From positions 1 through 37,121 of the forward strand of contig JACROV010000019.1 in the NCBI GenBank assembly GCA_016214285.1: a stretch of 37,121 nucleotides of DNA, given 5' to 3'. The notes under the pieces are model-generated. The model had not been told where the DNA came from and did no database searches. It saw only the letters and a list, made by a program, of their open reading frames with translations. Source of the DNA: Candidatus Omnitrophota bacterium (GTDB taxonomy: Bacteria; Omnitrophota; Gorgyraeia; Zapsychrales; Zapsychraceae). A program made the position numbers and the translations under genes. Numbering within the stretch: the first letter of the stretch is position 1; each line of letters begins with the position of its first letter. This document shows, in pieces, positions 26,772-29,824 of this stretch.

Positions 26772-26829
26772 CAGTCAGTCGGTCAGTGGCGGTCAGTGGC
26801 GAAGAAGAATGCGCCCGATTGGATTCCGA

Positions 26830-26857
26830 CTCATTAGGCCACATATGGCCTAATGAG
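26830..26857. repeat. Perfect 12-bp inverted repeat upstream of the efflux promoter
   Basis: CTCATTAGGCCA and its complement TGGCCTAATGAG flank CATA. It lies about 60 bp upstream of the -35 box. It could be an operator or a stem-loop; no U-tract follows, so it does not look like a terminator. Confidence 0.7.
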
Positions 26858-26994
26858 GAGTCCCGAGGCTCACGAGTCTTTACCAGAGTAAGCCGAGGGA
26901 GAACCAACCCCCAAGCCCCTCGCGACTGAATTGCTCAATACGGTCGCTCGGGACATCTATCCTTTTTGGAGAATAATCTTTAAGAAAAAAGGAT

Positions 26995-27066
26995 AAGTGC
27001 CCCTAGTTGGATTCCCCCACAGGGGCCAACCACGCAATGATTGAATAAATGCGCCTGGCCGGACTC
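26995..27066. repeat. Two degenerate copies of the tRNA-Arg 3' end
   Basis: The 20 bases at 26995-27014 differ from the tRNA 3' region (27146-27165) at one position, and those at 27047-27066 at about five. Each copy is followed on the plus strand by a C-rich/G-rich block (CCCCCacaGGGG, CCCCCaaaGGGG). They look like scars of insertions at a tRNA attachment site or decayed tRNA duplications. Confidence 0.6.
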
Positions 27067-27148
27067 CCCCAAAGGGGTCCTGTCTTCCTTCTAAATCGTA
27101 TTTATGGAAAAGACAGGAGAACCGGCACGATTGGCGGTTCAGATTAAG

Positions 27149-27223
27149 TGCCCCTGGTTGGATTCGAACCAACCACGCCGGCCTTAGGAGAGCCGCGCTC
27201 TATCCATACTGAGCTACAGGGGC
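27149..27223 (-). tRNA. tRNA-Arg (anticodon CCT)
   Basis: The minus strand folds as a cloverleaf. The acceptor GCCCCTG pairs with CAGGGGC, the D stem is GCTC/GAGC, the anticodon stem CGGCT/GGCCG holds loop CTCCTAA with anticodon CCT (codon AGG), and the T stem GTTGG/CCAAC holds loop TTCGAAT. The discriminator base is A and CCA is not encoded. Confidence 0.96.
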
Positions 27224-27225
27224 AT

Positions 27226-27362
27226 ATATAAAATGACCAAATTACAAGCACCAAATCACAACAATATACAATATCCAAATTCAAATAGCCAAAACTTTGT
27301 GATTTTGATCATTGGGGTTTGTTTATTGTCTGGAATTTGAGATTTGTGCATTGGAATTTTAA
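27226..27362. repeat. AT-rich imperfect inverted repeat, spacer copy 1
   Basis: The spacer is built from CCAAATTACAA / CCAAATTCAAAT-type words, and the second half is an approximate reverse complement of the first. It resembles the spacers at 29825-29945, 32268-32420 and 35262-35342. Confidence 0.55.
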
Positions 27363-27365
27363 CTA

Positions 27366-29810
27366 TCATTTAACACGATACGGCGCCAGGGCATTCAGAT
27401 AGCCTTCCGGGGCGTCGTACCCCAAAAGGACCGCTTCATCGCAGTACTTGACGGCGGCCGCAAAATCCTCCTTCTGAAAGGATAAAATAGACAAGTTTAC
27501 CAGCGCGTTCATGTGCAGGGAATCCTGATCAACGGCTTTTAAATAGCTGGAAATCGCCTCTCCGGTATTATTGAGCCTGGCATAAATATTCCCCATATTA
27601 TAATACCCCTCGGCATTCGCCGGATCCAGGGTAACCGACTTCCGATAAAGCTCAAGCGCACCCGGCAAATTCTCGGCCGCCTCCTCCAGGAACGCCAGGT
27701 TAAAATAAGCCCTGCCGTTACGGGGATCCACTCGCAGGGCCTTCTGATAAAAGGACTTTTCCCGATCCTTTTCCCCCTGCCGGCCGTAAATGACCCCCAT
27801 ATTCAACCAGGCATCGGCCATGCGGGGATCAACATCAAGGGCCTTTTGATAGAAACCAAGCGCTTCTTTGAACCTTCCCTGTTCTTTATAAAGATTCCCC
27901 AAATTATATAAAGCGCCGCTGTTCCGGGGATCGATCTCCAAAGCCCTGCGGTAAGCTAAAAGCGCCATCCCGGCGTCGCCCACATCGATATACAGATTGC
28001 CCAAATTAAAATAGGACGCCGCCTTCGGACGGTCTTTATTGACCATCGCGGCATACCGCGCCAGAACATTACTTCTTGCCTCCTGATACGCCGAAACACC
28101 GGGATTTTTCTCAATGGCCTTCGTGTACGCCTTGACGACCATAACATGCAGGTCCTTGTCTTCGGGGTTCAGCTGCAGCGCTTGATCAAAAGCGAAAACG
28201 GCCTGGCGCGCGTCCCCTGCTTCCACGTAGACATCACCGAGTCCGCAATGAGCGTCCTTGAATTTCGGGTCGATCTCCAGGGCTTTCTTGTAAGCCTCAA
28301 CAGCCTCGGGAAATCTTCCTATGCGGGCGTACAGATCGCCCAGATTATAATGGGCATCCATATAACCGGGTTCTGCCTCAACGGCACGCTGATAAAGCCC
28401 GATCAAATGATCGACCTTGCGGATCTTTGCGACGACCTCCGGCGCGAGGCCTTTTTGGACTCCCGCGAGCCCGGAACGCATCACTTTCTTGTACTCTTTT
28501 TGCGCGGCCCCGGATTCCCTGGTCTTGCCCAAGACGATGGCGAAGTTGTTCAAGGCAAGGGGTTCATCCGGATAATATTTCAGGTCGTGCCGCCATAATG
28601 ACATGCTGTCGCGCCAGACATGAGATTGCTGAAAAGTCTTGAACGAAAAAATCGTGCCCAGAAGAATGACGCCAAGAACCCGCGGCAACGCAGGGTGCTG
28701 CCGCGGGTTCAACCACAAACCAGCTAAAAAGCAAAATCCCAAAGACGGCAGATACATAAACCGGTCGGCGACCGTGTTGACGTCCTTTGTCTCGTCGAAA
28801 CGCAGTAAAAAAAATATCGACAAAAAATAAAAAAGAACGGCAAAGACGAACCATTTGTTGCGGCGTGGAGCCCCGCGGGCGGAATCCTGAACTGTCCCGA
28901 CGTAAAGTCGGGACTGCAAACGCGCGAGGGCCAAGACGACAAGGACAAGAACAGCGAGCGACAAGAAATATTCCGGGTTTGTCAACAGAACCGGTTTCGC
29001 GAGACGGTGCAACGGGACGGAAATATAGGGAAAAAAGAATTGCCGCAAATAGAACGTGAACGTCCACGGCCAGATCAAAGCGCTCTGCACGACGCTTTCG
29101 CCGGGGATGCGGGCGTGCGCCGCGTAGGTGATCCAGGCGATCCCGCCGATGATAACGCCCAAAGGCAACTTTTCGATGAACGCCTGTCTATTGAACGGTC
29201 TCCCTTTAAACCAATCGAGCAAGACAAGGATCAGCGGCAGGCTCAAGGCCATCGGCTTGGACAGCATGCTCAAGGCCCCAAGGATCGTCGTTACCCAAAG
29301 CCAATGGAATCTCTTCTCTCCCAGGTAACGCAGATAACTCAAAAGCGCGGCCATATAAAACGCGGCGTACAAAACGTCTTTACGTTCCGTGATCCAGGCG
29401 ACGGATTCGACATGGACGGGATGGATCCCGAAAATCAGCGCGGCCACGCCGGCGGCGGCTTGCGAAAGTCCGAGTTCGCGCCCCAGCAAAAACACCATGA
29501 CAACGACGAGAAGATGCAGCAAAACATTATCTAAATGATAGGCGAACGGATTATAGCCAAAAAAATGATGTTCCAGGGCGAAGGAAAGACTGGTGAGCGG
29601 AATATAGATCTTGTTGACGGTGGAGGTGAACATCTCCAGGACATGTTCAAGGTCAAGGCCGCGGATGGTGATATTCTCCAGCACGTGGACGTCGTCGTCC
29701 CAGAGAAGGAATTCACCTTTTAAAATAGGCAGATAAGAAAGGAACGTGAGAACAAGTATCGGGACGAGAAGAAAAACAGCGGGGATTTTTGAAGCAACTT
29801 GCTTATGCAT
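27366..29810 (-). CDS. TMTC-like GT-C membrane protein with extended TPR array
   Basis: A protein of 814 residues with about 10 membrane segments in the first 440, then about nine TPR units to the C-terminus (NLGDLYARIGRFPEAVEAY, NLGNLYKEQGRFKEALGFY and similar). The N-terminal half ([50 protein letters not shown]) closely parallels the shorter paralogue at 7560-9233, including the acidic loop expected to hold the catalytic aspartate. A polyprenyl-phosphate-dependent protein or lipid glycosyltransferase is inferred. I use the ATG at 29810, since 29819 is a GTG; neither has a clear Shine-Dalgarno sequence. SRLYVGTVQ near residue 300 is encoded by a palindrome (28894-28914). Confidence 0.82.
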   Translation of the reverse strand: MHKQVASKIPAVFLLVPILVLTFLSYLPILKGEFLLWDDDVHVLENITIRGLDLEHVLEMFTSTVNKIYIPLTSLSFALEHHFFGYNPFAYHLDNVLLHLLVVVMVFLLGRELGLSQAAAGVAALIFGIHPVHVESVAWITERKDVLYAAFYMAALLSYLRYLGEKRFHWLWVTTILGALSMLSKPMALSLPLILVLLDWFKGRPFNRQAFIEKLPLGVIIGGIAWITYAAHARIPGESVVQSALIWPWTFTFYLRQFFFPYISVPLHRLAKPVLLTNPEYFLSLAVLVLVVLALARLQSRLYVGTVQDSARGAPRRNKWFVFAVLFYFLSIFFLLRFDETKDVNTVADRFMYLPSLGFCFLAGLWLNPRQHPALPRVLGVILLGTIFSFKTFQQSHVWRDSMSLWRHDLKYYPDEPLALNNFAIVLGKTRESGAAQKEYKKVMRSGLAGVQKGLAPEVVAKIRKVDHLIGLYQRAVEAEPGYMDAHYNLGDLYARIGRFPEAVEAYKKALEIDPKFKDAHCGLGDVYVEAGDARQAVFAFDQALQLNPEDKDLHVMVVKAYTKAIEKNPGVSAYQEARSNVLARYAAMVNKDRPKAASYFNLGNLYIDVGDAGMALLAYRRALEIDPRNSGALYNLGNLYKEQGRFKEALGFYQKALDVDPRMADAWLNMGVIYGRQGEKDREKSFYQKALRVDPRNGRAYFNLAFLEEAAENLPGALELYRKSVTLDPANAEGYYNMGNIYARLNNTGEAISSYLKAVDQDSLHMNALVNLSILSFQKEDFAAAVKYCDEAVLLGYDAPEGYLNALAPYRVK
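28894..28914. repeat. Palindrome inside the TMTC-like gene
   Basis: GTCCCGAC and GTCGGGAC flank GTAAA. It is in frame, encoding SRLYVGT in a loop between membrane helices. Confidence 0.75.
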
Positions 29811-29824
29811 TGAAATCACAAGGT

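Follow-up and report, generated by a model that had tools for sequence, protein, structure and literature searches.

The tRNA-Arg(CCT) gene in the 37,121-nucleotide stretch of DNA analysed here (the window; Candidatus Omnitrophota bacterium, assembly GCA_016214285.1, contig JACROV010000019.1) is followed by three displaced relics of tRNA-Arg genes. With a probability of about 0.6, this array is a fossil left by several rounds of homing that each replaced the tRNA; a nuclease would have cut the resident tRNA gene, and its own gene would since have been lost. The agent was likely a small GIY-YIG nuclease rather than a tyrosine integrase. Homing endonuclease genes are a kind of element already known; the variant proposed here would reside in tRNA genes and bring a replacement tRNA.

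All features of the locus lie on the minus strand, in the order TPR-repeat protein gene (27366..29819), AT-rich repeat, tRNA-Arg(CCT) and relic units 2, 1 and 3. The AT-rich repeat (27224-27366, CCAAATTACAAG...) extends from the TPR gene to the tRNA and has many matches elsewhere in the genome and in some relatives. The working tRNA-Arg(CCT), the newest gene version at the locus, was found by ARAGORN at 27148..27223 and scores 59.2 bits with Rfam RF00005 (27149-27223). The relic units share one plan, consisting of a T-stem 5' strand that ends in GGTTC, then a hairpin or a pair of hairpins, then the remainder of the tRNA, which starts at T-loop position 57 and runs to the acceptor end. In relic 2, the nearest displaced copy, the T-stem 5' strand (27119..27128, ending GGTTC) pairs with the 3' half across a double-hairpin element, E (27067..27118; hairpin H1 of 41 nt and hairpin H2 of 11 nt), which sits in the T-loop of the relic and scores 67.1 bits with covariance model R1 and 33.9 bits with model R2. 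The second half of the T-loop, the T-stem 3' strand and the acceptor 3' strand follow at 27050..27066, a stretch with which the working tRNA-Arg in the sister genome G003 also ends. Relic 1, an older tRNA-Arg, begins with a variable-loop/T-stem 5' strand (27026..27035) that is the same as GCGTGGTTGG of the working tRNA; its T-stem strand ends in GTTGG with no TTC, and H2 stands alone (27015..27025), without TTC and H1, before the tRNA 3' half at 26998..27014. The H2-only form also occurs at tRNA-Phe and tRNA-Pro(ggg) of this genome. Relic 3, the farthest, comprises a T-stem 5' strand ending in GGTTC (26901..26912), a 74-nt two-hairpin element in the T-loop (26827..26900) with a weak R1 match of 22.7 bits, and a tRNA 3' half (26810..26826) of repeat family D1. 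In predicted folds the T-stem strands of each copy pair across the insert, copy 2 having been folded as RNA too. Folding is stronger than in shuffled sequences for copy 2 (z -4.24, as DNA) and copy 3 (z -5.00), whereas copy 1 is not clearly beyond shuffles (z -1.74, with 13 of 200 shuffles as good).

An earlier note had described two duplications of the tRNA 3' end at this locus and attributed them to tyrosine-recombinase integration. The copy at 26995-27014 is real: 19 of its 20 bases agree with the tRNA-Arg 3' end, and 0 matches are expected in shuffles at up to three mismatches. The copy at 27047-27066 is weak when taken alone, with five mismatches to the window tRNA, but the comparison with G003 upholds it as a true 3' half. 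The number of copies has to be raised by the third, at 26810-26826, and none of them is a bare 3' end, each having a T-stem 5' strand and one or more hairpins besides the part from T-loop to acceptor. No 5' half occurs within 250 bp upstream of the window tRNA-Arg (best 12/20). The open reading frame list shows no GIY-YIG gene beside the window relics, and the GIY-YIG matches of the genome all lie off contig C4.

Positions 27026-27066 are identical (41/41) to contig C85 of G003, where they constitute the 3' end of the working tRNA-Arg and its downstream spacer. This identity makes the 27047 copy a true 3' half of an older gene version, and since the match is to a working gene, the locus has been overwritten serially; the sister genome thus still uses the gene end that became relic 2 in the window. 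The next unit in G003 starts with the T-stem strand of relic 1, at which point the contig ends. G003 and G005 each have one intact tRNA-Arg beside apparently the same TPR gene, and tandem full tRNA genes, which would have spoken for simple duplication and decay, were not seen in them. Little downstream comparison is possible because the two contigs stop 47 and 3 bases past the tRNA. Three contigs (G005:C32, G003:C85 and G028:C61) stop within ~50 bp of the tRNA-Arg 3' end, which would suit an array that differs between members of a population.

The TPR gene also marks the locus in G029, a genome of another family, in which tRNA-Arg(CCT) follows a TPR gene whose product is 48% identical across the last 181 aa. 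Here an 85-aa GIY-YIG open reading frame (PF01541, E 1.9e-13) separates tRNA-Arg(CCT) from a displaced 3' half that bears E. Judged by one repeat-protein gene and the identity of the tRNA, the locus is probably orthologous to that of the window. The idea of an insertion scar with lost cargo therefore survives in part: the look of a scar and the GIY-YIG gene between tRNA and 3' half in G029 agree with it, but an integrase island as the cargo is not supported. In the interval from its TPR gene to its working tRNA, G029 also has an older tRNA-Arg with two inserts, as well as two open reading frames (L324:948-1469 and 1496-2005). These frames, situated between the element-ridden old tRNA-Arg and the working one, are possible further cargo and have no Pfam or NCBIfam match.

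Displaced halves are not confined to tRNA-Arg. Halves matched by isotype were sought in 250 bp on each side of 153 tRNA loci, some of them chosen because they hold E, with thresholds of at least 16/20 for 5' halves and at least 16/19 for 3' halves. The 5' halves lie upstream at 14 loci and downstream at 1, the 3' halves downstream at 33 and upstream at 0, and reversed-sequence controls give 0 and 0. With the threshold lowered to 15, 5' halves number 17 upstream, 3 downstream and 2 in reversed sequence, and 3' halves 37 downstream, 1 upstream and 0 reversed. Among loci picked only for a tRNA (250 bp), a relic accompanies 9 of 32 tRNAs in the window's own genome (wrong-side controls 0 and 0) and 7 of 77 in sister genomes (wrong-side controls 1 and 0). 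The isotype that matches best agrees with the tRNA of the locus for 10 of 11 halves upstream and for 28 of 30 downstream, and the three exceptions fit a neighbouring tRNA. The pattern thus recurs across the genus and is directional, with old 5' halves upstream and old 3' halves downstream.

Several of these relics can be reassembled. Old halves rejoined across inserts of 157, 152+71 and 204+115 nt give complete tRNA-Gly, tRNA-Gly and tRNA-Cys, respectively, and tRNA-Thr is complete when rejoined across 160 nt with the displaced copy. Nesting of whole genes is found as well. In G014, a hairpin that contains a whole tRNA-Gly interrupts another tRNA-Gly at its anticodon loop; the same arrangement is present in G005 with the two types swapped, and G017 has a tRNA-Cys within the D-loop of another tRNA-Cys. 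The stages can be followed at one locus, bounded in three genomes by tRNA-Tyr and the same other gene: tRNA-Gly is intact and of the old type in G001, a new-type gene interrupts the split old one in G005, and the new type stands alone in G000.

Empty and occupied alleles exist at the same site for tRNA-Pro, tRNA-Glu and tRNA-Val, where collinear flanks enclose an interrupted tRNA gene (G003 versus G000 and G002 for Pro, G001 versus G005 for Glu, and G002 versus G003 for Val). The tRNA-Pro gene is single in G003, while G000 and G002 keep its positions 1-39, followed by the nuclease gene and a new tRNA; in G000 the old gene continues at position 58 with its downstream flank, and in G002 the new tRNA passes directly into the old downstream sequence. 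For tRNA-Glu, the site is empty in G001 and in G005 consists of positions 1-30, the nuclease gene and a complete tRNA that is collinear with the old downstream sequence, from which it follows that the cassette restored the 5' half. This site in G005 has a short palindrome in its 5' half but no E-bearing 3' relic that could be detected, which makes it a first instance of a nuclease-tRNA insertion that lacks E. For tRNA-Val, G002 is empty and G003 has the nuclease gene, a new tRNA and then positions 13-74 of the old one.

The nuclease genes themselves are associated with tRNAs. Thirteen Omnitrophota genomes contain 50 small GIY-YIG genes, once ten long frames of UvrC type and two matches short of the cut-off are set aside. 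Of these, 26 have a tRNA no more than 300 bp away, in all 26 cases on the same strand, against a chance expectation of ~1.8% that is a rough density estimate (40 tRNAs in 2 Mb); the other 24 are farther than 300 bp from any tRNA. Among Y1 transposase genes, taken as a control, 0 of 20 are near a tRNA. Three of the six small GIY-YIG genes of the window's own genome are at a tRNA, namely tRNA-Pro(cgg), tRNA-Gln(ttg) and tRNA-Arg(ccg). Within 350 bp, the 26 nuclease-tRNA modules have a 5' half upstream in 13 cases, a 3' half downstream in 6 and either in 15, compared with 0 and 0 on the wrong sides and 1 and 0 in reversed sequence; the 11 modules without a half at threshold include that of G029 (3' half 15/19). 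PF01541 was above the cut-off in all six of the 26 tRNA-linked frames that were searched for it. In a tree of 49 of the 50 genes, one broken frame having been dropped, linkage to a tRNA requires 9 changes versus 16.5 in shuffles (0 of 500 as low). Where two tRNA-linked genes form a well-supported pair, both have the same isotype in seven of eight cases, which could also be explained by vertical inheritance. The nearest solved relatives of one GIY-YIG protein compared are hypothetical UPF0213 proteins, and the only matches of the G029 protein to phage records (E up to 0.01) are stretches of 34-36% identity in four Listeria phage records.

According to the explanation proposed here, free-standing GIY-YIG nucleases of ~80-100 aa, encoded in tandem with a tRNA gene, would cut a tRNA gene that lacks the nuclease. 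The cut would fall within one of the tRNA loops, with the anticodon loop and the T-loop as the best fits, and repair of the break would copy the nuclease cassette into it. The cassette would bring the part of the tRNA that restores function, be it the 5' half (Glu in G005) or the 3' half (the tRNA-nuclease order of G029), or else a complete isoacceptor tRNA, as for Pro in G000 and for Gly in G005 and G014. The incoming copy, often altered in the T-stem, would resist cutting, the old gene would stay split with one half on each side, and the palindromic E would accumulate within the dead halves, in their D-, anticodon- and T-loops. Later loss of the nuclease gene would leave the displaced halves alone, as may have happened in the window, whose latest round would have turned relic 2, still a working 3' end in G003, into a relic. 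A wider and more tentative proposal, put somewhat below even odds, is that Omnitrophota carry natural cleave-and-rescue elements, whose isotype-specific GIY-YIG nucleases cut an essential tRNA gene, insert themselves and supply a resistant tRNA with a recoded T-arm; successive waves would stack up as fossils, and selfish DNA would rewrite the tRNA repertoire.

Resistance by recoding was approached through sequence divergence. New and displaced 3' halves differ at 52 of 160 T-stem positions (0.33) and 17 of 224 acceptor positions (0.08), as against 0.31 and 0.19 in ordinary orthologues; the T-stem excess of the relic pairs is mainly acceptor conservation, because the match threshold favours the acceptor. 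The comparison argues weakly for recoding, since ordinary orthologues also differ most in the T-stem, the threshold acts in the same direction, and 10 of the 32 relic pairs have no T-stem change.

Integration at tRNA 3' ends is the obvious competitor to homing, and the T-loop is a known crossover region for it. Islands of this type, later deleted, would leave duplicated attachment sites, which agrees with 3' halves downstream of tRNAs that begin at a junction in the T-loop and with the different spacer after each window copy (~20, 14 and 85 nt). Such short spacers speak against islands, however, as do the hairpins within the T-loop of the displaced copies and the GIY-YIG gene that forms the cargo seen beside relics. 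Integration at a tRNA 3' end leaves no 5' halves upstream of the working gene; a duplicated 3' end with an untouched 5' end describes the window alone and fails for the class of loci, given the 5' halves upstream at 14 of the 153 loci and in 13 of the 26 modules. The integrase search that the earlier note had suggested returned two tyrosine recombinases, XerD and XerC, in a genome that is 88% complete. Large islands would be missed, because relics were sought only within 250-350 bp. Integration by a tyrosine recombinase, as proposed in that note, is accordingly highly improbable. Tandem duplication of the tRNA with decay, E entering the redundant copies later, is disfavoured as improbable. It would account for relics without E (tRNA-Glu and tRNA-Val of G000) and for two near-identical units of ~118 bp in tandem in G230, but not for 5' halves upstream and 3' halves downstream, for complementary halves that rejoin into one gene, or for the single intact genes of sister species at the same place.

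Two further explanations give the leading part to the hairpins. In one, E, as two inverted REP-like hairpins, is itself mobile and enters tRNA loops, sometimes with a tRNA in the loop of a hairpin, and the GIY-YIG genes are bystanders. The precise placement of E in T-loops, with no duplication or loss, suits this idea, as do related copies that occur at other tRNAs, within riboswitches and, reading in frame, within an open reading frame, the likeness of H1 to the reverse complement of H2, and the whole tRNAs of G014 and G005, which can be read as lying inside E-like hairpins. It leaves unexplained the GIY-YIG linkage (26/50) and the halves that flank nuclease-tRNA modules; no autonomous version of E was found, and E was absent near 20 Y1/RAYT-type transposases (best E 0.51). 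A mobile E as the whole explanation is therefore unlikely. In the other, the units are integron-like cassettes, with the T-arm as entry site and T-arm plus E as a folded attC-like site. The order of the array, a hairpin site at each junction and the restoration of the tRNA end at each step are in keeping with this, and both recombinases of the genome pass NF040815 (XerA, tyrosine recombinase/integron integrase). Both also pass the XerC/XerD equivalog cut-offs and fall below the two models dedicated to integron integrases (TIGR02249 and NF011946), however, and in the window array the T-stem strand that precedes E has its pairing partner in the following 3' half and not in its own cassette, which makes integron-like cassettes hardly credible. 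Homing with tRNA replacement is the reading retained here.

Element E has an exact position, with GTTC on one side and the bases that continue the T-loop on the other, and neither duplication nor loss is seen. A pattern search of the loci sampled at that stage found 13 distinct two-hairpin copies. In an alignment of 15 copies, 94.2% of pairs in the T-stem, H1 and H2 helices are standard, and 40 double-sided changes are present compared with 12.8 in shuffles. Model R1 includes the flanks and R2 describes E alone, and both favour T-arm sites because they were built mostly from such sites. With R1, E was detected in 18 of the 32 family genomes (E <= 0.01) and in 32 of 285 genomes across the phylum (E <= 1e-6); of the 22 loci added by the phylum scan, with positions set by hand, 16 have a tRNA within 400 bp. 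R2 was run on ten genomes, and its matches often cover both strands of one place (112 matches at 54 loci). Of 62 sites classified from that search, 26 occupy a T-loop that has a tRNA gene no more than 400 bp away, 5 are at other points in or next to tRNA genes or tRNA halves, 12 coincide with a riboswitch-like motif, and the others are in various places, including a few open frames. Since E also occurs in c-di-GMP riboswitches and open frames, it does not clearly belong to the homing cassette. A search with one pattern gave 0 matches in viral contigs and 3 in genome contigs, all Omnitrophica/Omnitrophota, in a set possibly without the window's own genome.

Other accounts of E were rejected. 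Y1/RAYT transposases are poor candidates for its mobilisation: Y1 occurs in 27 of the 32 family genomes, also in those without E, was not found in the E-bearing genomes G003, G004 and G014, and had no E nearby at any of the 20 Y1 loci examined, in disagreement with what defines a RAYT-mobilised element. A rule that E enters any stem-loop fails, flank pairing at 20 sites outside T-arms being like that of shuffles (p 0.25) and at the 12 riboswitch-type sites giving p 0.996. E is also not a spliced intron, because relics keep it though most of the tRNA is gone and splicing could not restore them. Rickettsia palindromic elements (RPE) are short palindromes; E is alike in this and in having one copy in frame inside an open reading frame, but differs in its many copies in T-loops of tRNA relics. 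With REP/BIME sequences, which are associated with RAYT enzymes (PMC2817692), E shares the pairing of inverted hairpins of one kind, H1 resembling the reverse complement of H2, but it has no GTAG-type head, was not found near Y1/RAYT genes and resides in loops of RNA genes.

tRNA genes are usually viewed as passive docking sites for integrases. In the loci described here, they appear as target, cargo and rescue of a homing system, and an essential gene seems to have been replaced in place repeatedly. If true, this would explain T-arm and acceptor swaps between the tRNAs of close species and would provide a natural counterpart to a man-made gene-drive design, together with a widespread record of invasions. 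In synthetic cleave-and-rescue drives, a nuclease is directed against an essential gene and a recoded rescue copy is supplied. Those drives are man-made and unlinked to their target, whereas the present elements would be natural and inserted in the target itself. A precedent for restoration exists in fungal mitochondrial atp6 (Allomyces), in which a homing nuclease was inserted, the incoming end restores the gene and the old end is left downstream; that case involves a mitochondrial protein gene, and the present one tRNA genes, both halves as well as whole genes, and repeated rounds.

The closest functional parallel may be SegB of phages T4 and T6, which is, like the nucleases of the present cassettes, encoded by a free-standing small GIY-YIG gene beside tRNA genes. 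T6 SegB is reported to be a GIY-YIG homing enzyme that cuts inside tRNA genes, with the motif RAWTSGAAC at 23 of 83 sites; the motif matches the T-arm, and the enzyme amplifies the segment containing the tRNA gene (PMC13096335). The complement of this published motif, GTTCSAWTY, spans the GTTC|GAATC junction used by E, so that cuts in T-loops may have opened the way for E. In the phage genome, the reported outcome is amplification or preferred inheritance of whole tRNA segments (PMC13096335), whereas the Omnitrophota cassettes are in a bacterial chromosome, are inserted inside tRNA genes and come with split halves and replacement tRNAs. By analogy, then, the cassettes would work in the manner of SegB, a likeness of action and not a claim of membership in its family. 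No report of nested tRNA genes or of chromosomal GIY-YIG/tRNA cassettes was found among the open-access titles and abstracts listed by searches, and a term search of passages of one Omnitrophota genome paper (PMC10066038) returned nothing on either.

Several minor observations concern E and other palindromes. Of the 12 riboswitch-motif sites, nine were scanned with Rfam and five reach the threshold of the c-di-GMP-I riboswitch RF01051 (L271:1501-1570, L228:1562-1625, L281:1393-1456, L284:1450-1513 and L220:1480-1551); in these five, E overlaps the riboswitch, after CAAAGCTA and before AGGG. Seven further riboswitch-like sites have similar flanks, the four scanned being all below the RF01051 threshold, and in three of the seven E stands one step earlier (GGACG|E|CAAA). 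At L074:1506-1586 (G012), an 81-bp element lies in frame in a PD-(D/E)XK (AddB-like) gene, within a T-arm-like palindrome, GGGTTC|AAATCCC. The tRNA-Pro(ggg) loci of two sister genomes (L062 versus L021) differ in that TTC and H1 are exactly missing from one and H2 is kept; along with relic 1 and the H2-only forms at tRNA-Phe, it looks as if H1 had been lost precisely and repeatedly. The tandem units of G230 (L297:1447-1712) follow a tRNA-Gly, and each consists of a tRNA 3' half, a spacer, a T-stem strand and E. A separate family of nested palindromes, GTCCCGAG...CGAGGGA...TCCCTCG...CTCGGGAC, stands directly 3' of tRNA-Tyr, tRNA-Leu and tRNA-Ile in the window's own genome (L040, L048 and L049). 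The tRNAs ahead of this family have an encoded CCA, and part of the palindrome family overlaps relic 3 of the window (26916-26954).
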